A DNA stretch of 64,000 nt from contig NC_012873.2 in NCBI RefSeq assembly GCF_000003195.3, positions 24,587,317-24,651,316 on the forward strand. Reading direction: 5' to 3'. This document shows positions 2,142-56,200 of the stretch, piece after piece. The DNA is from Sorghum bicolor. Its lineage: Eukaryota; Streptophyta; Magnoliopsida; Poales; Poaceae. Within the stretch, counting starts at the first letter, position 1. Each line of letters opens with the position of its first letter. The translations under genes and the position numbers were made by a program. The notes beneath the pieces were generated by a model. The model did no database searches. It worked only from the letters and a program-made list of their open reading frames with translations, and was not told the DNA's origin.

Positions 2142-3726
2142 TTACCCAATGTTCCAAAATCGCATCATGGTTGTGATGTTGACATTCATCGTCGTGGTGT
2201 CTTGTCTCAGTTCTTGTACTGCAGTGGCGTGGTCCTGGTTCCATTTTTGTTGCTGTTCCAAGAGTCGTCCATGTTCCGCTTGCGTATTCTGGATGTCGAG
2301 GAGAGTGTTGTCGGTACGGGTGAAGAAAGCGCCGGCCTCTTGGTAGTAGTTGTTCGTGAAAGCGTAGGAGGCGTCGGAATATCGTCCTGCATCGAATTGG
2401 GGCAGATGTCTGGATCCTGAAGCTCCATATGGATCAGTGGAGTACCTGCCCATATTAAAAGGCGGGTTTGTCCACTGGTTATCTTGGCCCTCCGGCCATG
2501 TCTCCTGTGTTGGCTCTTGTGGTTGTGCATGTCGAACCCATGGGTCTCGAAGGACTCGGGGGTTGTAGTCGTAAAAATGCAGGTGCGCTGCTTCTTCTGG
2601 CCCGGGATCAGCTCCATACCAGGTGCGTTCTTGATGGGTGGTCATCCTTTTAGATGTCACTCGCTGTGGAGCTCTCTGGTTTACCGATGTTACTGCAATC
2701 TCAATCATAAAATTTTGAACAACATAGAGGCCAAGGTTCGGGTTAGATAACCGAATCTTGCCTTTATTATCATATAGCATATACATTATATTCTCCTCTT
2801 TTTTCAACATCCGAGCTTGCCTAAATGTGTCATAGCCATGATAAATTCGTAACACATCTATGAATTCCAATGATGAATTTTTTAGTAAATGAAGATTAGA
2901 GGCTAGACGAGCGATAAGTGAAGTACATCCTACTGGTCCCTGAAGACTAGGTATACTAAGCCAATGAGAAACCAAAAGTGTAACAGGTGAAGTGGGTACT
3001 TTATTTATAGCAGCATATAAAAGTCGCAAATCTCCTACTCTTACTTTTCTAATATCGTCACGATGGAAAAGATTGTACCCAAGCCATTTGTGGAACATCC
3101 TAAGAGTGGTGTGTTCCATGTCACTGGTTCAGGCTTGAATATAAAAATTATCTCTAGATATCTCTCTCCAGAACTGGTGTCTCTAAAAATTAGGTAGGTC
3201 GGAGTCAATGTTCAAGAGGCATCTTGAAGAGAAACCAAGATGGTCACTCAATTCTCTCTAAGACAACAAAATGTCCTGTTTGAACATCCGAAAAAACAAT
3301 TACCACCTCATAATATTGTAAAGTGCAAAGAAATTCAAGGGTGAGAAGACGGGAACCCAGCTCAGTTATGTTCCAAAAATTTGTCCAACCTAACATCTGG
3401 AAAATTAAGTCGAATTCAGTATCCGTACCTGTTTCTTGTAGCAAGATTGGATCTAGAGTAGGGGTGTCAATGAAATCTTTGTTCTTTAGTTGCTGGTAAA
3501 CTTCCTTTTCACTGCGGGTCTTTAGTCCAAGGTCTCCTATCTTGAGAAGGACCTTGACTTGCTGATGAGATGAAAATGACGGAGCTTGTGTAGGCGTTGG
3601 GTCGACGATCATCTCTGACGGGTGCGAGGAGTGTCGGGATGAACTCCTCGTACCTATGTTCTTGAGAGCTTTCCCTGCGTTCTTCACCTTCTTGAACATC
3701 CTGCAGACAAAAGTTGACACACACAC
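2142..3726 (-). pseudogene. E1 env-position ORF, ATHILA ORF-1-like, broken
   Basis: Two minus-strand ORFs (3726-3244, 160 aa; 3119-2142, 325 aa) form one decayed gene. The first ends after a segment containing LGWTNFWNITELGSRLLTLE. The second contains RMFHKWLGYNLFHRDD, VRVGDLRLLYA and CTSLIARLASNLHLL. These resemble the conserved domain of plant Athila 'ORF-1' proteins (PF03078-like, recognised by eye). Between them the reading continues in the second frame through LSDHLGF and FWREIS, with two in-frame stops (about 3203 and 3129), so at least one frameshift and two stops break the gene. The C-terminal third is Q/N/Y-rich and ends in a possible coiled coil (LLEQQQKWNQDHATAVQEL). It lies after protease and before the PPT, the position where Athila elements carry env-like ORFs. 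No signal peptide or membrane segment is evident. The function is unknown. Confidence 0.6.
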
Positions 3727-18235: not shown

Positions 18236-18840
18236 GGTACCAACCTCTTGGAGAGTTGGTCATAGACCCAAAACACGAACACGTCATCTTGGCTCCTTTG
18301 CCCCACACACAGCAGCATACACATCCCGTTCTTGAATTGTTCTATCCTTCAACTCTGGTTGAGCTTCAACAATGGCTTTAAGCTCATCCTATAGAATATA
18401 AATAAGTAAAGTGTAGGCAACAGAACCATGTTTCTTTTTGTGGGAAACTTACAATCGTTCCTAATGCCTCCCTTAAAGGTACTCCATTTTTTTGTATGTG
18501 TGCTGATGTACACTTCATCACTTTGAGGGGTGCATCCAAGTGCTTTACCCTACAAGTTGTGTAACTATTTACCAATGAAAATGCCCCAAAATAAAGTAGA
18601 AGTCATAGATAAATTATAGAACTAAGTCAATGCATTACTGTAGCTACTAAAAATACACGATAAGAGAACTCATAGAACTATGGAGCAAAAGCACATATTA
18701 TATATAAAAATAGACTACAAGATAGGATTTTGTACCACATTATAACTACGACAAGCGTGCCTAATGCTTCCAGATGTATGATGAACCTTCAACTTCGCAC
18801 GATTTGTGTCGAGGATGCCAATAAGGGGTATCCCATCTAG
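18236..18840 (-). pseudogene. CACTA/En-Spm-type transposase gene fragment
   Basis: On the minus strand there are pieces of a spliced gene: an exon-like segment near 18835-18740 reading NRAKLKVHHTSGSIRHA, then a segment around 18565-18452 (KNGVPLREALGTIV) ending at a GTAAGT-like donor, and after an intron-like AT-rich stretch AIVEAQPELKDRTIQERDVY and AAVCGAKEPR. These resemble the Transposase_24-type domain of plant CACTA elements (by eye). Stops follow KEPR. The left end is cut by Z-left at 18235, and the right end merges into the RIRE2-like LTR. No terminal inverted repeats are seen. Confidence 0.45.
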
Positions 18841-18884
18841 CGCTCAGAATATAAGGATTCACAAACAATTCGAGGCTCCAGCTC

Positions 18885-19840
18885 GACGCTATGACATAAA
18901 TACGTGATCGCCAGGGCACGGTGTCGACCATAGCCCCAAATATGGAAACAGGGTTGAGCGAATCGGTAAGGGCTCGATGGCCAGCGATCGTCGAATACGG
19001 AAATAGCGTCAAGCGAAACGGCGAGCCTCGAGCGCAAGAGCGCTCCTCGCCGTCAGTCACGAGTACGGGAGCCAGAGCATTTAATGCGGCTGCCATGCTC
19101 CTACCTAACCTGACAGTCATGAGAAGCATGATAGGGGAACAAGCACCTGTCAAATCCACGCTTTTCCCAGCTTTATCCCTGAGATTGGATAAAAGTACAG
19201 ACCTGTACAGTATGGTAGGCGTAATATCCCATCGTGACACCCCTCGAGACGCTCGAAGTCAGCGCTCTTGAGCTTCTTCCCCAGGAAGGATCGAGCGACG
19301 GAAGTCAGCGCTTCAACCACCCTAGATGTGACTACTGCCACGACGTATAAGCGTGCTCGCGCCCATGCCAATACCAGACGATATACAGGGAGTTAGGCTC
19401 AGGGAACACTCGCACCATCATCACCAAAGTACCCCGTGACAAGACAGCTCGAGGCCACGCTCGTACGGAGGCCTCGAGTGGGTTAGCGCCATAGCCCTAT
19501 CGAGGCCTATCCAAACGCCTATACTCTATAACCTAGGCCTCCCCTTGAAACAATAAAAGGGGACACTGGGAGAAACATCTAAGGGATATATAGAACACAA
19601 TTCTCACACACCACCATCGGCTAGGACTTAGAACTCTTGGCCACATCCACTTGTATTCACCCTTATACAAGCACTTAGGTGCAAGATAATACAAAGTCCC
19701 CCCCCCCCCGCTGGACGTAGGGCCTTCTCTTGCCCGAACCAAGATAAATCTTTGTGCCACTCTTGTATCACCATCCAGAAAAGGGAGCACGCACACAAAT
19801 TCACTTATTGGTGCCACCCCCCGTGGTTAAAACACCAACA
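18885..19840 (+). repeat. RIRE2-like (Tat) 5' LTR, left boundary uncertain
   Basis: The right end is AACACCAACA, immediately before a PBS. It contains GCATTTAATGCGGCTGCCATG and a TATA-like AATAAAAGGGG (19548-19558). The partner LTR is not in the window, so the left boundary is a guess based on where CACTA-like coding sequence stops. Confidence 0.55.
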
Positions 19841-19841
19841 A

Positions 19842-19860
19842 TTGGAGCGCCAGGTAGGGG
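19842..19860 (+). other. RIRE2-like primer binding site
   Basis: TTGGAGCGCCAGGTAGGGG follows the LTR end by one base. It is close to the TTGGCGCGCCAGGTAGGGG primer site of RIRE2-type elements (family knowledge). Confidence 0.7.
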
Positions 19861-19889
19861 TCCTGCATGTTACCACCAATTTCCCATCT

Positions 19890-19894
19890 CTTTC
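19890..19894. repeat. Target-site duplication CTTTC, left of Tekay-type element
   Basis: Matches 34159-34163 exactly. Confidence 0.95.
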
Positions 19895-22800
19895 TGTAAC
19901 ATCCTCGATGTTACGGTTACTAAAAACGGATCATGTCATCATGAGCATTGCAAAGCATATTTGTTAAGCACATTAGTATGCATCAACTTAAAACAAGTTT
20001 ACTTTGATTACTTGAGCTTAGGGAAGTAAAGTGTGCTTGTGTGGTTGCTAAAAACCCTAAGGTGGAAATTTTCCGAAAAGCTAAGGGGGGGAAAACCCTG
20101 ATTTCTGGATCCTAGATTTGTCCCCTTTTGCTTAAGTCAAAAACTAAGCAAAATTTGAGGTTGATTTCAAAAGCAAAGTTGTAGCTCTGGGCAAGATGTA
20201 CAACTTTGGTGTTTTGAGTTTTTGAAGTTTCAATACAAAATTCAAAGTAATTTTGAAAATACAGATTTCCAGAAAGTGTCCCCTTTTCCAACTTAAAACC
20301 CCAATTCAAAATCCATTTGGAATTTTGAAAAGTGGTCAACATGAAAGTTGTAGAGCACAAAAAGTTGAGCAACTTTCATGTTGGGAGTTTTTCAAGTTGT
20401 TATGCAAAATCAAAAGTAATTTTAGAAATCCTGATTTGCCCCCATTTCAAAAATTTGGAATTTCTTTGATTTGAGTCTGATTTTCAAACTGTCTGGCAAA
20501 ATTAACCTATTTCCAGTGAGAATCAGCTTGGGACACCCAAATACGATTTGTAGCTTACAAATTTTGGCACAATTTTTGTTTTGGTGGAATTTGGACTTTA
20601 GTTCAAATTTTGGCTGATTTTCACAAGGGGACAAATGAGAGGAGATAAGGGAGAGCTACAGTGATCCAAGGGGATCACGAGCTCGTCCACCCCGGTTGCA
20701 GGGCGGGCAGGCGCCGCTCTCGCGCGCGCTGCCACGCACCGGCCACGCAGCTGCTTGGCCGCGCAGAGCCGCCGTGAAGTGGACACGACCCCGGCGTACT
20801 CATCCCCTCTCCTCGATGTTTCCCCTGAGCGGCCGCTTTATTTTCTTCCCCTCACCCAACTCCGGCGACCCCTCTGCGCCTTCAATTTTCGCCTCGGTTG
20901 ATCCCTTCCCATCTTCCCCGAGCACTCTACCAGCTTCGCCTAGTTCTCCGCTATCCGTTGCGCCCCCGAGCGCAAGCTCTACCTTTCTACAACTCCGCAC
21001 CGAACCGTTCTTCCCCAAACCCGGCCGGAGCTCCGCCGCGAGCGCCTCACCGTGGGCAGCGTCACCCAGAGCTTCTCCGCCACTGTTTCTTGCTCCTTTG
21101 GGATCGCGGTGAGCTACTGATGCTCTTGCGCTGCTCAGTTAGCATTCTACTCAAGTGTGGTGATCGGTGTTCGTCTGGCCGAGGCGGCCGTCCGCCGCGT
21201 CCGTGGCCGGGGCAGCTAGAGTAGGAGAGAGCAGGGGTAAAGGAGCTCTACGGGTGCGCAAGGATCTGGAGAAACTAGCGCACCTCACCGCGGGAGCCGG
21301 GGTCTCACCGGTGTTGCGGTGGAGTTCGCCGGAGCGGTGGCGCGAGGTAGGAGGCGAAGCTGACGGGCGGGACCCGCCCGTCAGTGTCTGCGTGAGGAGA
21401 GGGGGCAGCACGCGCCGTCCGCGCGGGAGCGCCCCCGGGCCGATTTGGCCGTGTCCAAGCGGGCCGTCTGCGCGGCGCGTGAGCAGGCCGAGCGCGCGTG
21501 GGCCGGCTTGCGGGCCAAGTTCCAGGCCGCCCGCCGCGCGAAAAATCTTTTCCTTTTTCCTTTTATGCAAATTTTTGCAGATTGTTTGAATTTGTGTAAT
21601 AATTCGTGTGTTAATCCAAAAATCATGGAAATTTTTGTGTAGATTCTCTGAAATAAGTAGAACCCAAGAAAAATACTAAGTTCTGTTTTCTGGTAGTTTA
21701 CATGTCTGTAAAAATTTGCCCTTTTAATTAGCAAATAAAACTTGTATGATTTTTAATAATTTATTTGTATGTCCAAAAATCACCAAAAATTGTGGGGAGC
21801 CTCTGAATATTATTCCCTGGCTCCACACAAAATTTGGTGGCATTTGGATATTGTTAGATTAGAATACTAATAAACCCTTATTTAGTACTTAAATAATAAT
21901 CCCAAAACCATTAAACAATAATTAATTAAGTTCTCATGATTAGGGTTGAGTGATTTTGGGATTGTGTGATCACCTGAGGTCATTAACCCTAATGACCTCT
22001 GGCAGTTAATTATTGTTTAGCCTTAATGCTCAATTACTGTCATTAGTAATTAATTAAGAATTAATTAAGGTAAATAGGTTTAATAATTACTTAATTTAAG
22101 ATAATTACGAATTAAGTAAAGTCTTAGTTTACAGATGCAACCTCTTGGGTAAAAACATTAAGTTATTAAACAACTTTGTTTATTGATTATTCTGTATTGC
22201 GTTAAAAAGGCAAATCGTACTTAATTCGGTCCATCTTGCATAATTGCCATACGCATATCATAAGCATTCATCATTTTGCGTATAGTGTCCGTGACCGAAG
22301 GAGCGCCCGTTGAACCGAACCCCGAGGTCGGTGCTCCGTTCGAGGAAGTCGGATCCGAGACTTGGGAAGTCTCCGAGGGTCCCTCTCTGCCCTGCAACCA
22401 AGGCAAGCCCCGGATGCATTAACCCCTCCTTGGATGTTTTAAATCTTTTGTCACTTATGAATTGAAAATGCTGCATTAGATAGTTGAGAATTGGGTTCAC
22501 CTACTTGCTGCACTTACTACCTTGATATCTATATCCTGTCCTTGACACCTGTTTTATTTTAAAAACTGCGTAGCGATGCTTAGCCCTGCTACTAGATAGG
22601 TTTTTAAACAAGAAGTTTGAAGGGTTGTTGTGGGATACACTTATGGTCAATGATGTTCAATTTGAGACCGGTCGGTGGACTTGCTTTAAGAATGGAGTCT
22701 TAAAGTAGTGTCTCCGACTGTGTCGATTAAGGACCGTTCCGTTGATGGCCTGCTGGGTTGAGAATTTATAGTACTAGCCACTTGCCTTCGGTAAGCCTGG

Positions 22801-24010
22801 ACTTGTGATCCCTCGACGCGAACAGCTACTCGCGCACTGGGAGTGGAAAGACGGCGAGAGTAGTGTGTACCCACCTTACGGATCTGAGATGACCGGAAAA
22901 CATCTAGATCGGCTGTAGGATGGTGGAGTACTGTGCTCTTGGGTGCCGCGAACCTGGTCAAATTTGGGGAGAGCTTGCTTTGGGTTGACATATGCAAGAT
23001 TTGGTTCTACATATGTCGGGTGGTTAGGAACTCCAGCTGGATTGCTAAGCGATTCGAATCGTCGTTGCTCCCCGATTGGGAGACTCAATTCCTTCAACCC
23101 TCATCGTAGTTAAATAAGCAACTGAATGATAAAATGAGAAAGGGGAAAATGTCTCATGAGGTTCGGATCCCAATTCCCGGACTCATAGCGACATGAAGCT
23201 ATGGCCATCGATAAGTAATACTTGACGTTAGGATTAGGAACTCACGGATTCGTCTGTGGGGTACAACTAGTTAAACTATCCTCGAACTCCTCGGCCTCTG
23301 CGGGAGAGGAATTCGCGGTTAAAACTTGAAAATAAGGATGCACCACTAGTAAGCTTTTAGCAAAACATTTTGGCTCCTTGCTCAGCCACCCCTTGCCTAC
23401 CCTAAGCCTGCATCCCTAAGTTCTCCTCTTTTCCCATCGGGTAAGTCTTGTTGAGTACTCCCGTACTCAGGGTTTCAATACCCCTGTTGCAGGTGAAGCA
23501 CAGGAGCCGACTTGTTTCGGACCCTGTTGTGTGACCGTCGTCGAGGTTGACGACGAAGAAGAGTGAGCGTGACCCATGGGCAGGGTCTGTAATTTTGTTC
23601 TGTCTATACTAAAGTTTCAGTTGTTCCGCTGGACCAGGCTTGTAATAACACTCTACTATTTGGAAGAACTCCTTTTGTAAATTAAGTTATGTAATACTTC
23701 CGCTGTTTCACTCTGAAATATTATTTTGGTCTTGTGTTGTTGAGTTACTGCTTTATCTTCGCAACGAATGATCCTGGTGTTAAGGTGGCCACTTGCTATC
23801 CTGTAAGGGCGAGAAGAAACAGTTCTTGTTGTTTGACCATTACCAGTGGTCAGGACGAGCCAGCTGGGTACGCCACAGGTAGCAGTGGAATGAGCGCCCA
23901 GCAATGCTCATCGGACTTCTAAAGTGGGAGGACTCCCGGCATCACCGTCAGAGGTCCTTAGGACAATGGCAGGTGTCGGTGGGCCCAAACACTTAGGAGG
24001 TTCTGCCACA
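19895..24010 (+). repeat. Tekay-type 5' LTR, 4116 bp
   Basis: It begins TGTAACATCCTCGATGTTAC and ends TTCTGCCACA. Every position maps to the 3' LTR by adding 10148. The layout is an AT-rich 0.75 kb with internal short inverted phrases (AAAGTTGTAGAGC, GAGCAACTTTCATGTTGG), a GC-rich block (about 20660-21545), then an AT-rich remainder. The GC-rich ORFs have no domains. Substitutions seen between the copies include positions 20313, 20667, 21989, 23009 and 23096 (approximate). Confidence 0.95.
21360..21384. repeat. 25-bp perfect GC-rich palindrome in 5' LTR
   Basis: Arms of 12 bases (CTGACGGGCGGG and complement) around one A. It would form a very stable hairpin in RNA. Confidence 0.9.
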
Positions 24011-24012
24011 GC

Positions 24013-24024
24013 TGGTATCAGAGC
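24013..24024 (+). other. Tekay-type primer binding site (tRNA-Met)
   Basis: TGGTATCAGAGC, complementary to the 3' end of initiator tRNA-Met, two bases after the 5' LTR. This is the usual chromovirus primer site. Confidence 0.92.
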
Positions 24025-24383
24025 ATTCGTTGCTAAGATGACTGCTGAACCTTTTGAAAAACTTCAAAAATTCGTTTGGAACTAATACTATGAACCTGCC
24101 TATTTTGAGTCCAAGTGCTTAGTCCTAACCTACCCCTGTCTATAGGCTTTCTTAGAATTTTTGAAGTGGTATGGAGGAGCAACATAAAGTATTGCCCTAT
24201 GTTGTAAAAGTTTAAAGTAATATCGTTACGAATTGTTAGTAGGAATCGTAAGTTCGTGCATGCATCATGATGTATTAACTGGTTAAGTTCCTTCCTCCTT
24301 GTTTGGGTTGGGTGAATAGAATCAATCCTATTCTTGCTAACCTTTAAGGTCTCTCTTACTCATCTAAACTTACCCTCTACAGG
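24025..24383 (+). promoter_or_regulatory. Tekay-type leader with candidate splice donor and acceptor
   Basis: Untranslated leader. It holds a consensus donor GTAAGT at 24248-24253 and a pyrimidine-rich stretch ending CCCTCTACAG at 24382, one base before the ATG of the extra ORF. Short upstream ATGs (e.g. about 24039) are present. Splicing is inferred and not demonstrated. Confidence 0.5.
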
Positions 24384-25088
24384 ATGGCTCGTCAGAAGCA
24401 GACCCCGCGTAAGCGGACCGGTCCAAAAGGAGTTCCCCGACATCAGCTAGCTCCACGCAGTGATCAAGCCAGTAGTAGCCGTTCACCGCCTCAGCAGGAG
24501 GTGGACAGGTTGTCCGCCGAGTTGACTGAGGTGATGAGAGAGAGAATGTACAATGTTATGGAGATTGGCAAACTTAAAGCTCAACTGGCCAAGGAAAAAC
24601 AAGCTACGGAAAACTGTGAAGCTATGTTGTCCCGGATGGTGGAGGAGCGGAATGCAGCCATTGCCCGAGAGGAAGAAGCTAGGAGCACTCATAGGCATGA
24701 GCTAACTAGGATGAACGCAAAGTTGGGCAAGGCAAGGTATCTTAAGGATTTGTATGTGAAGATGGCGGCCACGGTCACCGCACAACGGGACGTCGCGTGG
24801 CAACGAGAGGACCAGCTCCAGCTGGAGAAACTGGAGCTGGCACATCACTTAGATACAGTCAATGACCTGGCTATGCAATATCGTGATATTGCATTTGATC
24901 TGTATCATCAACTCCACCCACCTCCCGGCGAAGGAGAAATGGATACAGATGGCGAGTTGGCAGACGATGGAGAACCCGATCCAGGCCTCAGTGATGAAGA
25001 GGAGTCCGACCCCGATGACCACAACCCAGGGGGTAATCAGGATGATGGTAATGACGACCCGGGCTACAGCTCTGGCCACACCGATTAG
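24384..25088 (+). CDS. Extra ORF with histone-H3-like N-terminal tail, coiled coil and acidic tail
   Basis: An intact 234-codon ORF between PBS and gag. The ATG is fixed because the resemblance starts at the initiator Met: MARQKQTPRK against H3 MARTKQTARK, then TGPK against TGGK, and after a one-residue insertion PRHQLA against PRKQLA. About 15 of the first 23 residues are identical, and the positions equivalent to H3 R2, K4, Q5, T6, R8, K9, T11, G12 and K14 are kept. A7 is Pro, S10 is Arg and K18 is His. Residues ~37-172 are charged and predicted helical (VDRLSAELTEVMRERM, KLKAQLAKEKQATENCEAML), with coiled-coil character. Residues ~179-234 have about 21 Asp/Glu and no Lys/Arg. There is no histone fold, zinc finger, membrane segment or catalytic motif. 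The basic start RKRTGPK could also act as a nuclear localisation signal. The Met-Ala start should leave a free N-terminal Ala as in H3 (inference). A role in binding chromatin readers or modifiers is a hypothesis. Confidence 0.8.
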   Translation: MARQKQTPRKRTGPKGVPRHQLAPRSDQASSSRSPPQQEVDRLSAELTEVMRERMYNVMEIGKLKAQLAKEKQATENCEAMLSRMVEERNAAIAREEEARSTHRHELTRMNAKLGKARYLKDLYVKMAATVTAQRDVAWQREDQLQLEKLELAHHLDTVNDLAMQYRDIAFDLYHQLHPPPGEGEMDTDGELADDGEPDPGLSDEEESDPDDHNPGGNQDDGNDDPGYSSGHTD

Positions 25089-25303
25089 TTCGGTGAAACC
25101 GAGGGCAACGTTGTTGTAGGGGTCTTAGCTTGTCGTAGTGGGGTTTGGGTTTGTAATATAAGTTCTCTTTTGGTTTGAAAAGTTGTACTTGCTTACTCTT
25201 GGTGTGTATCTAACTAATGTTTAATAAGTGAATGAAAGAATGTAAGATATGTTCTGTGTTATGAATTTTACGTGGTAACAGGTATCTACGATTCTTGTAA
25301 CAG
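25089..25303 (+). other. Spacer between extra ORF and gag, with acceptor-like end
   Basis: 215 bp, T/G-rich, non-coding. It ends TTCTTGTAACAG directly before the gag ATG at 25304, an arrangement resembling a 3' splice site that places the gag start at the first base of an exon. Confidence 0.45.
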
Positions 25304-28300
25304 ATGCCGATGCGTACTCGCGGATCTGATGGAGCTGGGACATCCCAGGGAGGGGATGATATCCCCAACCCTCCACCTACTCCACCTTCTTTGGCTGACG
25401 CCATTGCTGTCTTGCTAAGTGCCACAACTGACAACGCTCGCTTGCTGCGCGAGCTAGCACAGCGACAACCACACCCTGTTCCAAATTTCAGGGCACCGCG
25501 CAACGGGGACGGAGAGGCTCGGTATGTGGATTTTACTGAGACCAGGCCCCCGGTGTTCACTAAGGCCGATGAGCCTTTAGAAGCGGATGACTGGCTCCGA
25601 ACTATGGAGCATAAGTTCAGCTTGATACAGTGTTCAGAAACTCAGAAACCTCTATTTGCAGCTCAGCAGCTTCGGGGAGCTGCAGGTGCCTGGTGGGAGA
25701 ACTTCTTAGCTATTCAAGCTCCCGGTCACCAGGTTACCTGGACCGAGTTTAAGGACGCGTTTCGCGCCCACTACATCCCCGAAGGGCTCATGGCCATGAA
25801 GGCCGAAGAGTTTCTCGCCTTGCAGCAAGGCGATAAGAGTGTTATGGAATACGTGGCAAGGTTTAATCATCTCTCTCAATATGCCACGGATCATGTGAAC
25901 ACTGACAGAAAGAAGAAAGCCTGTTTCATGCGTGGTCTAAATACTAAACTTCAGACCATGATGACCACTTGCCAAAATGCTACTTTCTATGAGGCGGTAA
26001 ATATTGCCATCGCCTCTGAGGAAAAGAATAGGAAACATAAGGAAGCCAAGAAGAAGGCTGCTTCCTCTTCTTTCTCTGGTCGCGGTCAAAAGCGCCAGAG
26101 GATCATTTATCATCCACAGGGCCACGGACGTTTCCAAGCGCCGTCATCTTATCGTGGTCCTTTCTCCCCTCCACAGTACAGACCCGGGCAGCAGGTATAT
26201 TCTCGACCTACTGCCATCGCTTTTGCACCACGCCAGCCGAACGCCCCGGGTGTTCGCCCTACTGCTCCGCCCAGCCACAATTACCCTTGCTTCAATTGTG
26301 GTAAACCTGGGCATTTCTCTAAAGAGTGCCCTTTTCCCCGCCAAACCAACCCTACCTTTCCAAGGCCACCTATGGGCCAACCCCAGCCGGGTCAGTTCAG
26401 AACTGGGGTTCAAAAAGGGCAACAGGCACAGAAAGGTAGACCGGTAAAGAAAACAGGGCAAGTCTTCCATACTGAAGTGGAGACAATTCCAGAGGGTGAA
26501 CCAGTGATGATGGGTACGTTTCCTGTTGCGAAGTATCCTGCTTTAATGCTCTTTGATTCTGGTGCATCTCATACATTCATCAATCGCACCTTTGTGTTAA
26601 AGCATGGCATACCCATTGGGGAAACACAAGATCATTTTTATATACAGTCGCCAGGAGGACGGCTGATGTCTAAAGAAATGGTTCACCAAGTACCCATCGA
26701 ATTTGGTGGGCACAATTTTCCTACTAGCATGATTGTTCTTAAGGACCAAGAGATTGATGTCATCTTAGGCATGAACTGGATGGCGCAACGAGGGGTTGTG
26801 CTAGACACTTTGCACCGAACTATTAAAATCCCATTGCCCAATGAGAATTCCTACTTGCTAATCCAATTAGTTACTCCCAAACGGACAATTGGGCAAGTTC
26901 ATGCCGCTAATGTGTCTGAAGTTAAAGATATCCCGGTAGTTCGAGATTTCCCGGATGTATTTCCTGAAGACTTACCAGGTCTGCCTCCGGACCGGGATGT
27001 ACAATTCAGTATAGAATTGAAACCAGGAACGGCCCCAATATCTCGAAGGGCCTACAGAATGGCACCGAAAGAGCTGGCCGAATTAAAAACCCAATTACAA
27101 GAGTTGTTGCAGAAGGGTTTTATTCAGCCCAGTTCTTCTCCATGGGGTTGCCCAGCCTTGTTTGTGAAGAAGAAAGATCAGACATTAAGGCTGTGTGTCG
27201 ACTATCGTCCTCTAAATGAGGTGACGATTAAGAACAAGTACCCATTGCCCCGCATTGACTTACTGTTTGACCAGCTAGCTGGGGCCAAAGTGTTCTCAAA
27301 AATTGATTTGAGATCAGGGTACCACCAAATTAAAATTAGGCCGGAAGATGTGCCCAAGACTGCTTAACAACCCGTTACGGGCTGTATGAATACTTGGTGA
27401 TGTCTTTTGGGTTGACTAACGCACCGGCCCATTTTATGTACCTGATGAACTCTGTCTTCATGCCAGAACTAGACAAATTTGTGGTCGTCTTCATCGATGA
27501 CATCTTGATTTACTCCAAAACTAAGAAGGAACATGCTGAACACTTGAGAATCGTGCTGACCCGTCTCAGGGAGCATCAGCTATATGCCAAGTTCAGCAAA
27601 TGTGAGTTCTGGCTGGACAAAGTTCATTTCCTGGGTCATGTATTATCAGCGGAAGGAGTCGCTGTAGACCCAGGCAAGGTAGAAGATGTGTTGAATTGGA
27701 AACCCCCGACTACGGTACATGAGGTCCGTAGTTTTCTGGGCATGGCGGGATATTACCGTCGTTTTATCCCGGACTTTTCCAGAGTCGCCAAACCAATCAC
27801 AACCTTGCTCAAAAGTCAAACAAAATTTGTTTGGTCACCCCAATGTGAGCAAGCCTTTCAGACTCTGAAAAGGTTGTTGACAACTGCACCTGTCTTAGCC
27901 CAGCCAGATATTGAAAAACCCTTTGATGTATATTGTGACGCATCAGGAATCGGGTTAGGCTGTGTGCTGATGCAGGAGGGTCGCGTAATTGCATATGTTT
28001 CCAGACAACTCAAACCTCATGAAGAGAATTACCCGACCCATGATCTCGAACTAGCCGCCGTGGTACATGCATTAAAGATCTGGCGTCATTATTTGTTGGG
28101 AAACACATGTCATCTATATACAGATCACAAAAGCTTGAAGTATATCTTTACTCAAGCTGAGCTTAATATGCGCCAGCGAAGGTGGCTAGAACTAATTAAA
28201 GATTACGACCTTGAGGTGCATTATCACCCTGGCAAGGCAAATGTAGTAGCGGATGCCCTCAGTCGTAAGGCTCACTGTAATTGCTTAACAGTGACGCCTA

Positions 28301-29835
28301 GGGATATAACTTTGTGCCAAGAGCTAGAGAACTTGGGAATAGAAATGATTTCCCAAGGAAGCCTTTCCAATTTAAAGATTGATTTCAATCTCGAGGCTCA
28401 AATCATAAGGGCACAAAAAGAAAACAAAGGCATGAGACATCTTAAAGAGAAGATTTCTAATAGAGCACCCACAGACTTAAAGGTGGATGATGCGGGAGTA
28501 ATCTGGTTCAAGAACCGGTTAGTGGTTCCAAAGGTACCTGAGCTACGTCAGCAAATCCTGGATGAAGCTCATACCACGAGGTATTCCATTCATCCGGGAA
28601 GCAATAAGATGTATCAGGACCTGAAGCAAAGGTTTTGGTGGACAAAAATGAAGATAGAAATAGCTCGCTATGTGGCCCAATGTGACACCTGTCGAAAGGT
28701 CAAAGCCATTCATCTCAAATCCGCTGGGGAATTGCAACCTTTGCCTATCCCCGCATGGAAATGGGACGACATAAGTATGGATTTCATAGTAGGATTGCCC
28801 AAGACGGCCAAGGGCTTTGATTCCATTTGGGTCATAGTAGATCGTCTCACCAAAACAGCACATTTTCTGCCAGTAAAGCTATTGTATCCTGCCTCCACCT
28901 ATGCTAAGATTTATTTCGACCGTATCCTAAGTCTGCATGGGGTGCCAAAGACAATAGTGTCAGATAGAGGCACACAATTTGTCTCCCAATTCTGGAAATG
29001 TTTACATAAGTCCCTGGGCACTAAGCTTTTATACAGCACAGCCTACCACCCTCAAACTGGTGGGCAAACTGAAAGGGTAAATCAAACCCTAGAAGATCTA
29101 TTAAGATCTTGTGCCCTGAATTTTCCAGATAAGTGGGATGACTGCTTGCCTCTAGCAGAATTTTCCTACAATAATAGTTATCAAGAGAGTATCAAAATGG
29201 CTCCCTTTGAGGCACTGTATGGTCGCCGATGTCGAACTCCGTTACACTGGTCGGAACCTAGAGAAAGATGGTTCTTCGGAGTTGACCTAGTGAAAGAGAC
29301 TGAGAACAAAGTGAAACAAATCCAAAATAACTTGAAAGTTGCTCAGTCTCGACAGAAAAGTTATGCTGATAAAAGACGTCGACCATTAAAGTTCGCCAAA
29401 GGTGATCATGTGTATTTGAAAGTATCCCCAATGAAAGGAGTAAATCGTTTTGGTGTTAAAGGCAAGTTAGCGCCTCGTTACATTGGTCCATTTCCCATTA
29501 TTGACCGATGTGGACAAGTCGCTTACCGCCTTAAATTGCCCGAACGATTATCCGGGGTGCATAATGTGTTCCATGTGTCTCAACTGAAAAAGTGTCTTCG
29601 GGTACCAGATCGAGTTCAAGATATTGAAGATGTAAAACTTGAACCAGATCTAACTTATTCGGAATACCCTATCCGAGTACTGGATCAAAAAGCTAGAGTT
29701 ACTCGAAGGACAACCACCAAATGGTATAAGGTACAATGGAGCCAGCACTCTGAAGAAGAAGCCACCTGGGAACCTGAAGATTACTTGCTAGAGAATTTTC
29801 CTGAATTCCATGCTTCTCTTCAGGATAACATATGA
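25304..29835 (+). pseudogene. Tekay-type gag-pol with chromodomain, one frameshift
   Basis: The ATG at 25304 opens gag. Domains: Gag core (residues ~90-200, [28 protein letters not shown]), CCHC knuckle C329-x2-C-x4-H-x4-C342, protease DSGA at residues 418-421 with ILGMNWM, and RT from about residue 560 ([30 protein letters not shown]). The first frame stops at TAA 27365-27367. Reading resumes one frame back, giving [10 protein letters not shown], the FIDDILIYS catalytic motif (27490-27516) and RNase H ([18 protein letters not shown]). Integrase follows with an HHCC finger (about 28567-28690) and a DD35E triad at codons 28780, 28963 and 29071, then the GPY/F module ([11 protein letters not shown]). 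A C-terminal chromodomain (about 29665-29800; [21 protein letters not shown]) ends at 29835. All other motifs look intact, so the lesion is recent. The chromodomain of this lineage is thought to guide integration to H3K9-methylated heterochromatin (family knowledge). Confidence 0.93.
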
Positions 29836-30042: not shown

Positions 30043-33000
30043 TGTAACATCCTCGATGTTACGGTTACTAAAAACGGATCATGTCATCATGAGCATTGCA
30101 AAGCATATTTGTTAAGCACATTAGTATGCATCAACTTAAAACAAGTTTACTTTGATTACTTGAGCTTAGGGAAGTAAAGTGTGCTTGTGTGGTTGCTAAA
30201 AACCCTAAGGTGGAAATTTTCCGAAAAGCTAAGGGGGGGAAAACCCTGATTTCTGGATCCTAGATTTGTCCCCTTTTGCTTAAGTCAAAAACTAAGCAAA
30301 ATTTGAGGTTGAGTTCAAAAGCAAAGTTGTAGCTCTGGGCAAGATGTACAACTTTGGTGTTTTGAGTTTTTGAAGTTTCAATACAAAATTCAAAGTAATT
30401 TTGAAAATACAGATTTCCAGAAAGTGTCCCCTTTTCGAACTTAAAACCCCAATTCAAAATCCATTTGGAATTTTGAAAAGTGGTCAACATGAAAGTTGTA
30501 GAGCACAAAAAGTTGAGCAACTTTCATGTTGGGAGTTTTTCAAGTTGTTATGCAAAATCAAAAGTAATTTTAGAAATCCTGATTTGCCCCCATTTCAAAA
30601 ATTTGGAATTTCTTTGATTTGAGTCTGATTTTCAAACTGTCTGGCAAAATTAACCTATTTCCAGTGAGAATCAGCTTGGGACACCCAAATACGATTTGTA
30701 GCTTACAAATTTTGGCACAATTTTTGTTTTGGTGGAATTTGGACTTTAGTTCAAATTTTGGCTGATTTTCGCAAGGGGACAAAAGAGAGGAGATAAGGGA
30801 GAGCTACAGTGATCCAATGGGATCACGAGCTCGTCCACCCCGGTTGCAGGGCGGGCAGGCGCCGCTCTCGCGCGCGCTGCCACGCACCGGCCACGCAGCT
30901 GCTTGGCCGCGCAGAGCCGCCGTGAAGTGGACACGACCCAGGCGTACTCATCCCCTCTCCTCGATGTTTCCCCTGAGCGGCCGCTTTATTTTCTTCCCCT
31001 CACCCAACTCCGGCGACCCCTCTGCGCCTTCAATTTTCGCCTCGGTTGATCCCTTCCCATCTTCCCCGAGCACTCTACCAGCTTCGCCTAGTTCTCCGCT
31101 ATCCGTTGCGCCCCCGAGCGCAAGCTCTACCTTTCTACAACTCCGCACCGAACCGTTCTTCCCCAAACCCGGCCGGAGCTCCGCCGCGAGCGCCTCACCG
31201 TGGGCAGCGTCACCCAGAGCTTCTCCGCCACTGTTTCTTGCTCCTTTGGGATCGCGGTGAGCTACTGATGCTCTTGCGCTGCTCAGTTAGCGTTCTACTC
31301 AAGTGTGGTGATCGGTGTTCGTCTGGCCGAGGCGGCCGTCCGCCGCGTCCGTGGCCGGGGCAGCTAGAGTAGGAGAGAGCAGGGGTAAAGGAGCTCTACG
31401 GGTGCGCAAGGATCTGGAGAAACTAGCGCACCTCACCGCGGGAGCCGGGGTCTCACCGGTGTTGCGGTGGAGTTCGCCGGAGCGGTGGCGCGAGGTAGGA
31501 GGCGAAGCTGACGGGCGGGACCCGCCCGTCAGTGTCTGCGTGAGGAGAGGGGGCAGCACGCGCCGTCCGCGCGGGAGCGCCCCCGGGCCGATTTGGCCGT
31601 GTCCAAGCGGGCCGTCTGCGCGGCGCGTGAGCAGGCCGAGCGCGCGTGGGCCGGCTTGCGGGCCAAGTTCCAGGCCGCCCGCCGCGCGAAAAATCTTTTC
31701 CTTTTTCCTTTTATGCAAATTTTTGCAGATTGTTTGAATTTGTGTAATAATTCGTGTGTTAATCCAAAAATCATGGAAATTTTTGTGTAGATTCTCTGAA
31801 ATAAGTAGAACCCAAGAAAAATACTAAGTTCTGTTTTCTGGTAGTTTACATGTCTGTAAAAATTTGCCCTTTTAATTAGCAAATAAAACTTGTATGATTT
31901 TTAATAATTTATTTGTATGTCCAAAAATCACCAAAAATTGTGGGGAGCCTCTGAATATTATTCCCTGGCTCCACACAAAATTTGGTGGCATTTGGATATT
32001 GTTAGATTAGAATACTAATAAACCCTTATTTAGTACTTAAATAATAATCCCAAAACCATTAAACAATAATTAATTAAGTTCTCATGATTAGGGTTGAGTG
32101 ATTTTGGGATTGTGTGATGACCTGAGGTCATTAACCCTAATGACCTCTGGTAGTTAATTATTGTTTAGCCTTAATGCTCAATTACTGTCATTAGTAATTA
32201 ATTAAGAATTAATTAAGGTAAATAGGTTTAATAATTACTTAATTTAAGATAATTACGAATTAAGTAAAGTCTTAGTTTACAGATGCAACCTCTTGGGTAA
32301 AAACATTAAGTTATTAAACAACTTTGTTTATTGATTATTCTGTATTGCGTTAAAAAGGCAAATCGTACTTAATTCGGTCCATCTTGCATAATTGCCATAC
32401 GCATATCATAAGCATTCATCATTTTGCGTATAGTGTCCGTGACCGAAGGAGCGCCCGTTGAACCGAACCCCGAGGTCGGTGCTCCGTTCGAGGAAGTCGG
32501 ATCCGAGACTTGGGAAGTCTCCGAGGGTCCCTCTCTGCCCTGCAACCAAGGCAAGCCCCGGATGCATTAACCCCTCCTTGGATGTTTTAAATCTTTTGTC
32601 ACTTATGAATTGAAAATGCTGCATTAGATAGTTGAGAATTGGGTTCACCTACTTGCTGCACTTACTACCTTGATATCTATATCCTGTCCTTGACACCTGT
32701 TTTATTTTAAAAACTGCGTAGCGATGCTTAGCCCTGCTACTAGATAGGTTTTTAAACAAGAAGTTTGAAGGGTTGTTGTGGGATACACTTATGGTCAATG
32801 ATGTTCAATTTGAGACCGGTCGGTGGACTTGCTTTAAGAATGGAGTCTTAAAGTAGTGTCTCCGACTGTGTCGATTAAGGACCGTTCCGTTGATGGCCTG
32901 CTGGGTTGAGAATTTATAGTACTAGCCACTTGCCTTCGGTAAGCCTGGACTTGTGATCCCTCGACGCGAACAGCTACTCGCGCACTGGGAGTGGAAAGAC

Positions 33001-34158
33001 GGCGAGAGTAGTGTGTACCCACCTTACGGATCTGAGATGACCGGAAAACATCTAGATCGGCTGTAGGATGGTGGAGTACTGTGCTCTTGGGTGCCGCGAA
33101 CCTGGTCAAATTTGGGGAGAGCTTGCTTTGGGTTGACATATGCAAGATTTGGTTGTACATATGTCGGGTGGTTAGGAACTCCAGCTGGATTGCTAAGCGA
33201 TTCGAATCGTCGTTGCTCCCCGATTGGGAGACTCAATTCCTTCGACCCTCATCGTAGTTAAATAAGCAACTGAATGATAAAATGAGAAAGGGGAAAATGT
33301 CTCATGAGGTTCGGATCCCAATTCCCGGACTCATAGCGACATGAAGCTATGGCCATCGATAAGTAATACTTGACGTTAGGATTAGGAACTCACGGATTCG
33401 TCTGTGGGGTACAACTAGTTAAACTATCCTCGAACTCCTCGGCCTCTGCGGGAGAGGAATTCGCGGTTAAAACTTGAAAATAAGGATGCACCACTAGTAA
33501 GCTTTTAGCAAAACATTTTGGCTCCTTGCTCAGCCACCCCTTGTCTACCCTAAGCCTGCATCCCTAAGTTCTCCTCTTTTCCCATCGGGTAAGTCTTGTT
33601 GAGTACTCCCGTACTCAGGGTTTCAATACCCCTGTTGCAGGTGAAGCACAGGAGCCGACTTGTTTCGGACCCTGTTGTGTGACCGTCGTCGAGGTTGACG
33701 ACGAAGAAGAGTGAGCGTGACCCATGGGCAGGGTCTGTAATTTTGTTCTGTCTATACTAAAGTTTCAGTTGTTCCGCTGGACCAGGCTTGTAATAACACT
33801 CTACTATTTGGAAGAACTCCTTTTGTAAATTAAGTTATGTAATACTTCCGCTGTTTCACTCTAAAATATTATTTTGGTCTTGTGTTGTTGAGTTACTGCT
33901 TTATCTTCGCAACGAATGATCCTGGTGTTAAGGTGGCCACTTGCTATCCTGTAAGGGCGAGAAGAAACAGTTCTCGTTGTTTGACCATTACCAGTGGTCA
34001 GGACGAGCCAGCTGGGTACGCCACAGGTAGCAGTGGAATGAGCGCCCAGCAATGCTCATCGGACTTCTAAAGTGGGAGGACTCCCGGCATCACCGTCAGA
34101 GGTCCTTAGGACAATGGCAGGTGTCGGTGGGCCCAAACACTTAGGAGGTTCTGCCACA
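30043..34158 (+). repeat. Tekay-type 3' LTR, 4116 bp
   Basis: The same length as the 5' LTR with about a dozen substitutions and no net indel. It ends TTCTGCCACA followed by CTTTC. The palindrome copy lies at 31508-31532. Confidence 0.95.
31508..31532. repeat. 25-bp perfect GC-rich palindrome in 3' LTR
   Basis: Identical to the copies at 21360-21384 and 12484-12508. Confidence 0.9.
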
Positions 34159-34163
34159 CTTTC
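34159..34163. repeat. Target-site duplication CTTTC, right of Tekay-type element
   Basis: Matches 19890-19894. Confidence 0.95.
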
Positions 34164-52087: not shown

Positions 52088-53259
52088 TGGTGAGGTCGTT
52101 GTCCCGATCTTCATGACGTAGGATAACTAGCTGAAGATCAGCCGATAACTTGCTGCAAGCAGCGAGGATAACTAGTGCAACCTGACGACACGCACAAGGA
52201 GCTAACCACCGTCTCTATACGGCAGCCTGAACCAAGGATTCGCCCAACCACACTCTCAAAGAACCAACCTACGCAATCTGAACTCGAGGATCAGGAGCAC
52301 GGATTGGGTGCCGATGACGCGGCCGCTTCTGTAATCTCCACGAAGGAAAACACAAGAGCAAAGGGGTAGAGATCTCTCTCTGAATTTGTTAGCACACAGC
52401 TGAACAAAGTGGTTTGTATTCTCAATATCATAAGTCTTCGATTACAATGAGTCTTAGGGGGTATTTATACTAGCAACAGCCCTGCTAGATAGGTATGAAA
52501 ATGAAATAGAGTTTCTGAGCGAAGGCAATGTGAAAGGTCCCCTCGAAATGGATTCCCGAAGTGACTTCGCGTGACTGTTGGCCTCCAGAGCAGTTTCCAA
52601 TAAACTGACCATAACTTTCCATTGGGAAGTCCAAATGATGATCCGTTTCTTGGGTGTGAAACTAGACTCCGAGAGATTTCTATCAATATATTCCGTGCAC
52701 CACGAAACGCTGTAGATTGGTACAGTTTTACTTGGCAAGTTGTACCAACATTCTGTCACGACAGACTGTTGACCTTCTGAGCAGTCTATACTAATTCTAG
52801 TCTGCAGGTAATATGGAGTATCCAAACTGGTCGCCACTTGATTCACTGGAAAGTAGACTCGAAGAGCTTTCCAACAAGTGCTCATGGGCCTTCATAGCAT
52901 CTTGAAAGTGAAAGTTATGATCTTTTCTTTCAACTAGTCTGTTCTGCACCGCACTGGTCCGATCTGCCCTTCTTTCAACTGGTCCGTTCTGCACCGTGTT
53001 GTTCCAATCCTTGCGATCCAGGTCACCTCCCTCCTCATGTGTATACCTAAGCATAACCAAAGTAGAACACTTAGGTAGTATAATATTCTCATTAACATTA
53101 ATAGAACTCTCACAAAGTAGCGCGTTCACCTCTTGTTGTAGCTTCTTGGCTCGGCTACGTGTAATTGCTCCATCAATGGCTTGGGCTGGTGCCGGCGTAG
53201 TCAGTGTAGAGGTTGGCGTGGAATTAGATGGAGCATGCTGGGTTGGGATGTCCTCATCA
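52088..53259 (-). repeat. CRM-like 3' LTR, 1172 bp
   Basis: Plus-strand edges TGGTGAGGTC and TCCTCATCA, i.e. TGATGAGG...GACCTCACCA on the minus strand. It contains the 3' end of the pol reading frame (52797-53259). Confidence 0.9.
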
Positions 53260-56200
53260 TCCTCCCCCTCTTGAAAAGGAGTCGACCTCGACTCTGATTC
53301 TTCTAATCTGAAGAACGGTGTCAAGTCAGCAACGTTGAAGGTTGTGCTAACACCATAATCTTCAGGAAGCTCAATCTTGTAGGCATTATCATTGATCCTG
53401 GACAGCACTCTGAATGGACCATCTCCCCGTGGCATCAACTTGGATTTACGCTTCTCAGGAAAACGGTCTTTGCGAAGATGTACCCACACTAAATCTTCGG
53501 GCTCAAATATCACCTTCTTGCGATGCTTGTTTGCCCAATCAGCATAGTACTTGGACCTTCTTTCGATTGCTTCTTTGGTCTTCTCATGAATCTTCTTGAC
53601 ATATGATGCACGCTTGGAAGCTTCCATGTTAATCCTTTCCTGCAATGGTAGAGGCAACAAATCGATCGGAGCAAGGGGTTTGAATCCATACACAACTTCA
53701 AAAGGACACATATTAGTTGTAGAATGTACTGCCCTGTTGTAAGCGAATTCCACATGTGGCAAGCACTCTTCCCACTCCTTCAGGTTCTTCTTTATCAAGG
53801 CTCGTAGCAGCATAGAATGTGTTCTATTCACAACTTCAGTTTGTCCATCCGTTTGAGGATGACAAGGGGTGGAAAATAGCAGCCTTGTTCCAAGCTTTGC
53901 CCACAATGTCTTCCAAAAGTAGCTCAAGAACTTGGTGTCACGGTCTGAAACAATCGTTTTGGGCACGCCGTGTAATCTTACAATATCCCTGAAAAATAGA
54001 GAGGCTATGTGGGAAGCATCATCGCTTTTATGACAAGGTATAAAATGTGCCATTTTAGAGAACCGATCAACAACAACAAAAATTGAATCCATTCCCCTCT
54101 TTGTCCTAGGTAAACCCAAAACAAAATCCATGCTAATATCTTCCCAAGGGGTACTAGGAACAGGCAAGGGAGTATATAATCCATGAGGGTTCAGTTTTGA
54201 CTTAGCTTTGTGACATGTGATGCATCTTTGAACAAGTCGTTGGACATCTCTTCTCATCTTTGGCCAGTAGAAGTGATCAGCTAGCATCTCATATGTCTTT
54301 CTCCATCCAAAGTGACCCATCAATCCACCTGCATGTGTTTCCTGTAGCAACAAAAGCCTAACAGAGCAGTGGGGTACACACAATTTGTTAGCTCAAAACA
54401 AAAATCCATCATGTATATGATATTTTTCCCACCCTTTTCCAGTTGTACAGTTTGCAAATGGTTCTGAAAATTCATGATCAGTGGGGTACAATTCTTTTAT
54501 GCTTTCAAGTCCTGGCACCTTGACATTTAGTTGATTCAACAAAACATTTTTACGTGACAAAGCATCAGCAACAATGTTTTCTTTACCTTTCTTATATTTC
54601 ACAACATATGGAAAAGTTTCAATGAATTCAACCCATTTGGCATGTCTACGATTCAGTTTTGCTTGCCCCTTTAAATATTTCAAAGCCTCATGATCTGAAT
54701 GAATAACAAATTCTTTTGGCCATAAATAATGTTGCCAAGTCTCAAGAGCTCTTACCAAAGCATACAATTCTTTGTCATACACCGAGTAGTTCAGTTGTGC
54801 ACCTTCTAACTTCTCACTGAAGTATGCAACCGGCTGTCCATTTTGCATTAGGACACCACCGATTCCGATCCCACTTGCATCACATTCAACCTCAAAGGTT
54901 TTAGTGAAATCTGGTAACACCAGCAAGGGGGCTTCGGATAGCCTCTTCTTCAATTCTTGGAATGCTCTCTCTTGTGGTTCACCCCATTGGAAGGCAACAC
55001 CTTTCTTTGTTAACTCATTCAACGGAGCAGCTATGGTGCTGAAATCTCTCACAAATCTCCTGTAAAAACCAGCAAGTCCATGAAAACTTCTCACCTGACT
55101 CACATTTTCAGGAGTTGGCCAATCCTTGATTGCTTTCACCTTTGATTCATCAACCTGAATTCCTGAACCTGAAACAACAAAACCAAGAAACACAACCTGA
55201 TCTGTACAAAATGTGCACTTCTCAAGGTTAGCAAATAATTTTTCTTTTCTTAGCACATCCAAAACTTGCTTAATATGATCAACATGTTCCTCCAATGTCT
55301 TGCTGTAAATTAGAATATCATCAAAGTAAACAACAACAAACTTTCCAATGAATGCTCGCAAGACATGGTTCATCAATCTCATGAACGTGCTAGGGGCATT
55401 GGTCAAACCAAAAGGCATAACTAACCATTCATACAGCCCAAACTTTGTTTTAAAAGCAGTTTTCCATTCATCTCCAATCTTCATTCTAATTTGATGGTAA
55501 CCACTTCTCAAATCAATTTTAGAAAACATCATAGAACCACTTAATTCATCAAGCATATCATCTAGCCTAGGAATAGGATGACGATAACGAACGGTGATGT
55601 TGTTTATGGCTCTACAATCTACACACATCCTCCAAGAACCATCTTTCTTTGGCACCAAAATCACAGGAACAGCACAAGGACTTAAACTTTCTCGCACATA
55701 TCCTTTATCTAAAAGTTCTTGTACTTGCCTTTGAATCTCCTTGGTTTCTTCCGGATTGGTGCGGTACGCCGGACGGTTTGGAAGTGCAGCTCCAGGGATG
55801 AGATCAATTTGATGTTTGATACCGCGCAAAGGAGGAAGTCCAGAAGGTGTTTCCTTTGGAAAAACATCGTCATAGTCCTGCAAAACATGTGCAACAACAC
55901 TAGGGACAGATGTTAAGTCATTAGCTGAAAGCAATGTGTCCTTGCACACAAGTACAAATAGTACTTGATCTGGGTTTTTCCTCACATCTCTCATTTCAGA
56001 TTTGGTGGCTATCATCACGAAGTTCTCTCCCTCTCTTTTTCTGTCATCTCTCATGTTTGGCTTGTGGCTCTCACTCACTGATTTGTGGAGGGCACTCAAA
56101 TTATTTTTCTCTCTTTCTTTTGCACTCTCATTCCTCACTTCAAAGCACTTTTGCAAGTGCTCAGCTAGGATTTGCTGAGGTGTCATGGGTTTAAGAATCA

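Follow-up and report, generated by a model that had tools for sequence, protein, structure and literature searches.

The extra 5' open reading frame (ORF) of a Ty3/gypsy LTR retrotransposon with a chromodomain (a chromovirus) begins with a mimic of the histone H3 tail, which starts at the first residue, spans about 25 residues, occurs family-wide and is the best-conserved part of the protein. The ORF occupies positions 24384-25088 on the forward strand of the 64,000-nucleotide stretch of DNA that was analysed, referred to here as the window. The main new observation is that the family has shed the lysines that H3 uses for acetylation, while K9 stays. Judged from sequence alone, the most likely mechanism would be a bait centred on K9.

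The element and its extra ORF

The two LTRs of the element differ at 14 of 4117 aligned bases (99.66% identity), and the duplication CTTTC flanks both ends (Table 1), so that the element is indeed young, as the initial annotation had proposed; assuming about 1.3e-8 substitutions per site and year, this divergence would mean an age of roughly 0.13 million years. Between the LTRs, Pfam matches follow in the order gag, protease, reverse transcriptase (RT), RNase H, integrase and C-terminal chromodomain, and the primer binding site TGGTATCAGAGC is one that we take to be of the initiator-Met type. The extra ORF, located between the 5' LTR and gag, consists of 234 uninterrupted codons, intact as had also been claimed, and begins MARQKQTPRKRTGPKGVPRHQLAPRS (24384-24461).

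The motif EEATWEPE, found in the open piece 27400-29835, matches the motif EEXTWEXE described for Tekay chromodomains (PMC3350952), and the stretch R-V-T-R-R-T of the window agrees with the second motif given there, (K/R)-X-(L/T)-R-X-(k/r), except at its last, less strict position. On the basis of the chromodomain motif EEATWEPE and the layout, the element is provisionally filed under the Tekay/Del-type chromoviruses. The RT of this otherwise young copy is split at 27365-27400 across two frames, which may reflect either a recent break or the mobilisation of the copy by helper elements; with gag-pol in two frames, the window copy may not be autonomous, though its extra ORF is intact.

The element is apparently nested in another LTR element (18500-19894 and from 34164), and its left flank, inspected by eye, contains an LTR-end-like stretch followed by a primer-binding-like stretch near 19845. 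A second Ty3/gypsy element, on the reverse strand (52797-57941), is made of one open piece running from gag to RNase H and a second one with the integrase, and shows no chromodomain match in Pfam at E<=0.01; its C-terminus is presumably CRM-like. An ORF of 325 codons on the reverse strand (2142-3119) has the look of a plant mobile element.

Table 1. Features of the element and of its extra ORF, in window coordinates
Feature	Position	Strand	Basis
Target site duplication CTTTC, left copy	19890..19894	.	Flank comparison
5' LTR	19895..24010	+	99.66% identity to 3' LTR; edges and target site duplication
Donor-like CGG/GTAAGT in 5' LTR, first intron base 23441	23438..23446	+	Rank 2 of 347 GTs
Primer binding site TGGTATCAGAGC	24013..24024	+	Sequence
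Acceptor-like AG/G, one base before the ORF ATG (putative 3' splice site)	24381..24383	+	Rank 1 of 104 AGs
H3-tail mimic, residues 1-26 of the extra ORF	24384..24461	+	PDB searches, shuffles, relatives
Extra 5' ORF (ORF0/5'aORF position), 234 aa, intact	24384..25088	+	ORF list, Pfam
Single long helix (predicted), residues 36-177	24489..24914	+	AlphaFold2
Acidic C-terminal tail, predicted disordered, residues 180-234, net charge -21	24921..25085	+	AlphaFold2, charge count
Acceptor-like AG directly before the gag ATG (putative 3' splice site)	25302..25304	+	Rank 2 of 104 AGs
gag, protease, first part of RT (open piece 1)	25304..27367	+	ORFs, Pfam
Rest of RT, RNase H, integrase, chromodomain (open piece 2, other frame)	27400..29835	+	ORFs, Pfam
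Chromodomain with EEATWEPE	29677..29805	+	PF00385, E 2.4e-6, 27.8 bits (cut-off 25.1); PDB chromodomains
3' LTR	30043..34158	+	LTR alignment, edges and target site duplication
Target site duplication CTTTC, right copy	34159..34163	.	Flank comparison

Similarity of the N-terminus to the histone H3 tail

In a global alignment to the 25 N-terminal residues of H3 (with Met), the N-terminus of the ORF shows 16 identities and one inserted residue (15 identities without Met), bearing out the H3-like start that had been listed residue by residue. The alignment score of 68 compares with a mean of 19.6 for shuffles (sd 5.1, maximum 48; z 9.4), and none of 20,000 composition-preserving shuffles reached it. 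Among the 734 ATG-started open 26-mers of the window, the mimic included, the runner-up scores 27. When the 26 residues were searched against PDB chains using phmmer, histone H3 ranked first (E 0.0047), and all of the best 60 of 119 rows at E<=10 carry H3 names. The corresponding search, whose profile was made from 15 family tails and no H3 sequence, again placed H3 first (E 9.6e-7), with 59 H3 names and one Cse4 in the best 60 of 138 rows. Twelve relatives submitted to the same shuffle test gave z values from 6.9 to 10.2, with 0 of 20,000 shuffles reaching the score in eleven of them and 1 of 20,000 in P0046; two relatives have more identities to H3 than the window copy (18 in P0053 and 17 in P0047). 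Chance resemblance is excluded by the PDB searches with the ORF tail and with the family profile, together with the shuffles.

No histone fold follows the tail: histone families are absent from the Pfam matches of the extra ORF, and the body after the tail is predicted as one helix, unlike the H3 protein family.

Distribution of the tail among relatives

The extra ORF, used as query, retrieved 57 protein matches; an alignment of 11 members retrieved 141, of which the best 120 were taken, and a body-only search with residues 28-186 of a distant member retrieved 168, of which the best 120 were likewise taken. The tail was counted by profile searches in place of looser tail patterns, one of which gave false positives, and is present in 106 of the 249 family proteins, window ORF included. 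A single-copy curiosity is thus ruled out; the observation made on the window copy was right and extends far beyond it.

The other 143 proteins all match one of five references, and in the itemised positions none has a first residue that projects to reference residue 27 or earlier; the first residue falls in the bin 27-45 in 19 cases and later in 124. Relatives without the H3-like start had been named as grounds for doubting the mimic, which survived this comparison, as no tail-less protein (0 of 143) covers the N-terminus. Within the best 120 of the 168 body-only matches, the tail is present in 20 and the start lies downstream of it in 100. Possible causes of the late starts of the 143 proteins are the gene callers' choice of start, contig edges or true truncation. 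P0009, whose start is unrelated, could be a rearranged copy. One hundred proteins contain the tail from its first position on; in 72 of them it begins at the predicted N-terminus or is offset by a single residue, and in the other 28 the gene caller places the start 11 to 32 residues upstream of it. A pattern scan of viral contigs returned 19 matches, with no relative among them.

Conservation of the tail and of its individual positions

At the protein level, 14 members hand-chosen from diverged groups, all with the tail, share a mean pairwise identity of 74% in the tail versus 33% in the rest, and tail identity exceeds body identity in 90 of the 91 pairs, which are not independent of one another. 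The initial annotation had allowed that a tail conserved no better than the neighbouring sequence would point to a chance or single-copy resemblance; the mimic withstands this comparison. Between the window ORF and P0077, 18 of 25 residues are identical in the tail and 26 of 159 in the rest. Sliding windows of 20 columns give values of 0.64-0.78 for starts at residues 1 to 16, and of at most 0.45 for starts at residue 26 or later.

Position counts were made on 71 distinct full-register tails from 101 proteins, five of the 106 tail matches having been excluded because they start too late. The H3 residues kept in nearly all of these are T6 (67), R8 (62), K9 (69), T11 (61) and G12 (64) in the first half, and P16 (70), Q19 (69), L20 (71) and A21 (69) in the second, so that K9 is lost in two tails and R8 in nine. 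Changes fixed in the family are G13 to Pro (67), A15 to Gly (71), an inserted Val (71), K18 to His (70), T22 to Pro (67) and K23 to Arg (69). The positions A1 (26), R2 (48), T3 (58) and Q5 (12) are looser, and K4 is kept in 32 tails (Arg in 37), K14 in 24 (Ile in 36), A7 in 30 (Pro in 25, Thr in 11, with Ser also seen), S10 in 38 (His in 19, Arg in 10) and R17 in 44 (Cys in 21, with His also seen). Positions 1-24 contain no lysine other than K9 in 20 of the 71 tails, and the sequence ARKS occurs in 17.

These counts do not support the earlier suggestion that K4 or K14 matters more for the action of the mimic, as K9 and R8 are far better kept than either. A free Ala1-Arg2 terminus, which had also been brought forward, is no family property, since A1 is so often lost and many relatives start M-P-P-R-T. 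The group P0071-P0134, a large set of close relatives, combines this start with Arg in place of K4 and Ile in place of K14; going by its residues, position 4 of this group cannot be lysine-methylated. A family-wide reading centred on K4 and PHD readers is ruled out, because K4 and Ala1 are often lost. The expectation that A7P and S10R alter the context of K9 applies to the window copy, but not to the relatives that keep ARKS.

The same pattern bears on the origin of the tail. The likeness begins exactly at Met and spans 25 residues, as a captured exon would, and the tail could be the captured start of an H3 gene that was kept for another job, in which a basic tail would bind RNA or the particle, for example, without a chromatin role; a basic tail and an acidic C-terminal tail could also serve self-assembly. 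However, the uncharged residues T6, T11, G12, P16, Q19, L20 and A21 are kept while several lysines have been shed, which a merely basic tail would not need, and we consider such a capture rather unlikely as the explanation of what is conserved.

Predicted structure and charge of the protein

For the window ORF, AlphaFold2 (55-sequence alignment; mean pLDDT 78.7, pTM 0.41) predicts a disordered N-terminus, one helix comprising residues 36-177 and a disordered C-terminus. A member of a far group has the same predicted plan, with a helix at residues 37-136 (33 sequences; mean pLDDT 73.9, pTM 0.36). Periodicity analysis of the helix showed power at 3.4-3.7 residues that was matched by 27 of 2000 shuffles; the strongest period, however, is 2.7, so that support for a coiled coil is only weak. 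The rod may nonetheless self-associate and so display several tails together. Diverged groups (P0002-P0250) also have in common a second conserved spot near the end of the helix, with the sequence LHE-x-VHxLYxQLHP or a variant. No Pfam family matches the extra ORF above its cut-off, and three relatives gave Pfam matches below the cut-offs or none. A dsRNA-binding fold has been proposed for maize and sorghum 5'aORFs with TM-scores of 0.35-0.37 (PMC11728184); AlphaFold predicts it in neither member modelled here.

The C-terminal tail carries a charge of -17 to -27 in seven members, of -10 in P0069 and of -5 in P0077, and residues 1-26 of all nine members for which charges were calculated have net values between +6 and +8. 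Such a basic tail would suit an H3-type nuclear import signal, recognised by the karyopherins of H3 and bringing the protein, perhaps with the particle or integration complex, into the nucleus. Both Kap123 and Kap-beta2 recognise the H3 tail itself as an import signal, and Kap-beta2 makes contact with residues 11-27 (PMC5677370). Kap123, however, reads K14 and K23 and ignores the sequence of residues 15-22 (PMC5677370), whereas the family keeps K14 in 24 and K23 in 2 of the 71 tails and is most conserved precisely in 15-22; a Kap123-type K14/K23 signal is accordingly disfavoured. The Pro that replaces T22 in 67 of the 71 tails should disturb the helix at residues 20-27 seen with Kap-beta2 (PMC5677370), and T6, G12, Q19 and L20 would be dispensable in a plain import signal. 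Import is a serious rival explanation, if an unlikely one.

Putative function as a K9-centred bait

The tail is kept in distant relatives in which the rest of the protein has changed, and it may therefore let the element bait or mislead the silencing machinery of its host. The reading that we tentatively prefer, and hold to be plausible though short of probable, is that a K9-centred H3-tail mimic has been selectively kept on a helical rod as bait for the host factors that handle H3K9. The ORF protein would enter the nucleus and present its pseudo-H3 tail, of which K9 is the one constant lysine, as bait or substrate to these factors; candidate partners are SUVH/KYP-type writers, CMT-, ADCP1- or SHH1-type readers, and RdDM. 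Host factors might then be drawn off the DNA of the element (an anti-silencing effect), or alternatively be recruited to its integration complex. The partner would have to read T6-R8-K9-T11-G12 together with P-x-x-Q-L-A and be indifferent to K4, K14, K18 and K23; on biochemical grounds, H3K9 writers or readers, or an SHH1-type RdDM reader, best fit the first half of the tail. Both partner and effect are thus putative. The narrower possibility of an anti-silencing decoy, in which several tails on a helical rod are methylated or bound by the H3K9/RdDM machinery, divert it from the element and have been kept by selection since the family groups parted, is doubtful.

The pattern in which T6, R8, K9, T11, G12, P16, Q19, L20 and A21 are kept counts for the K9-centred bait, as does the disordered tail followed by a long helix that is predicted in two diverged members. 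Other considerations count against it. Pro in place of A7, seen in 25 of the 71 tails, should disfavour HP1-type chromodomains, and S10 is replaced by His or Arg in 29. The second half of the tail, G-V-P-x-H-Q-L-A-P-R, is better conserved and contains family-specific residues that H3 lacks; we know of no reader for it. In favour of the bait, G9a/GLP contain H3-like motifs that undergo methylation and bind HP1 (PMC9768651), and EHMT2 substrates and mimic sites share an R-K core (PMC10611923). Against it, the EHMT pattern derived from human proteins, [ASGNLKEC]RK[SVTRQNMLKEAGR] (PMC10611923), is matched by only 19 of the 71 distinct tails, and P-R-K-R of the window copy misses it, since Pro is disallowed at the first position.

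A reader closer at hand would be the integrase chromodomain of the element itself, on which the tail might dock, either tying the ORF protein to the integrase in the particle or masking the chromodomain until integration. The idea is attractive because reader and pseudo-tail occur in one element, and the chromodomain, when aligned to that of Clr4, keeps Tyr and Trp at the positions of that reader. The third aromatic position, however, aligns to His, and the Tekay (group II) chromodomains are described as having an incomplete cage and no known ligand (PMC3350952, PMC12786077); we regard such docking as distinctly improbable.

Possible splicing and expression

Splice sites were scored with an approximate matrix, covering 104 AGs in 24010-25400 for acceptors. 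The two best acceptor-like sites lie immediately upstream of the extra ORF and of gag (Table 1), the latter in the context TTGTAACAG followed by ATG (25284-25304). The best of 347 GTs is a donor-like AAG/GTAAAT in the LTR, with its first intron base at 22070, and the second best is listed in Table 1. The interval from the primer binding site to the extra ORF contains seven ATGs. P0045 reads LTLYR just ahead of its Met, as the window DNA would in that frame, which suggests that the acceptor-like site is shared. Two spliced messages may thus be produced, one for the extra ORF and another, from which the extra ORF would be removed, for gag.

The ORF start adjoins the best acceptor-like site, as might be expected if the stretch were held at the RNA or DNA level, for instance as a splice enhancer or packaging signal, with the peptide merely following. 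Against this, first- and second-base codon swaps occur inside the block (A7 to Pro, Thr or Ser; S10 to His or Arg; R17 to Cys or His), and the block reads as H3 in frame from Met; conservation at the RNA or DNA level is very improbable.

Comparison with known systems

In the literature, the extra 5' ORFs that grass Tekay-type elements carry are said to evolve fast, and their function is given as unknown or uncertain (PMC3485330, PMC11728184, PMC7264820). The ORF0 or 5'aORF of Retrosat2, RIRE3, RIRE8, FRetro3 and maize and sorghum elements likewise lies in sense orientation between the 5' LTR and gag (PMC3485330, PMC11728184), and the window ORF has this position; it is likened to them by position and description. 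As in the window, the elements concerned have long LTRs and a chromodomain, the body of the protein evolves fast, and helix or disorder is predicted in some. The published models of the maize and sorghum 5'aORFs differ in having alpha-beta parts and a weak DRBM-like match (PMC11728184), whereas the window ORF is predicted to have one helix only. The word 'histone' does not occur in the main texts of PMC3485330 and PMC11728184, which mention no H3 likeness for ORF0/5'aORF, and no H3 mimic in the extra 5' ORFs of such elements was found among the open-licence PMC papers searched. No function has so far been agreed on for the extra ORFs of plant LTR retrotransposons, and a conserved H3-tail mimic offers a concrete handle on how these abundant plant elements meet H3K9/RdDM silencing.

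Histone mimics include influenza NS1, SARS-CoV-2 ORF8 and the SNAG domains, the last of which also act through the N-terminus; to our knowledge, the known ones are short motifs. The automethylation sites of G9a/GLP (PMC9768651) and the motifs of EHMT-CBX interactors (PMC10611923) are likewise non-histone, H3-tail-like stretches that can engage writers or readers, but they are mostly short, with about four residues, against about 25 from the first residue here. The present family further differs from other histone mimics in being a family of LTR retrotransposon proteins, with the fixed changes G13P, inserted V, K18H and K23R. A mimic of about 25 residues that starts at the first residue and has been retained across a retrotransposon family would amount to a novel type of histone mimicry.

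Anti-silencing proteins are found in plant DNA transposons, where VANC is an example; those of the Vandal type give sequence-specific protection from RdDM, and we know of no H3 tail in them. The Vandal aORF is described as such an anti-silencing protein of a plant DNA transposon (PMC11728184). The Vandal aORF and VANC are accessory transposable element proteins that counter host silencing, and the role proposed here for the window ORF would be alike.
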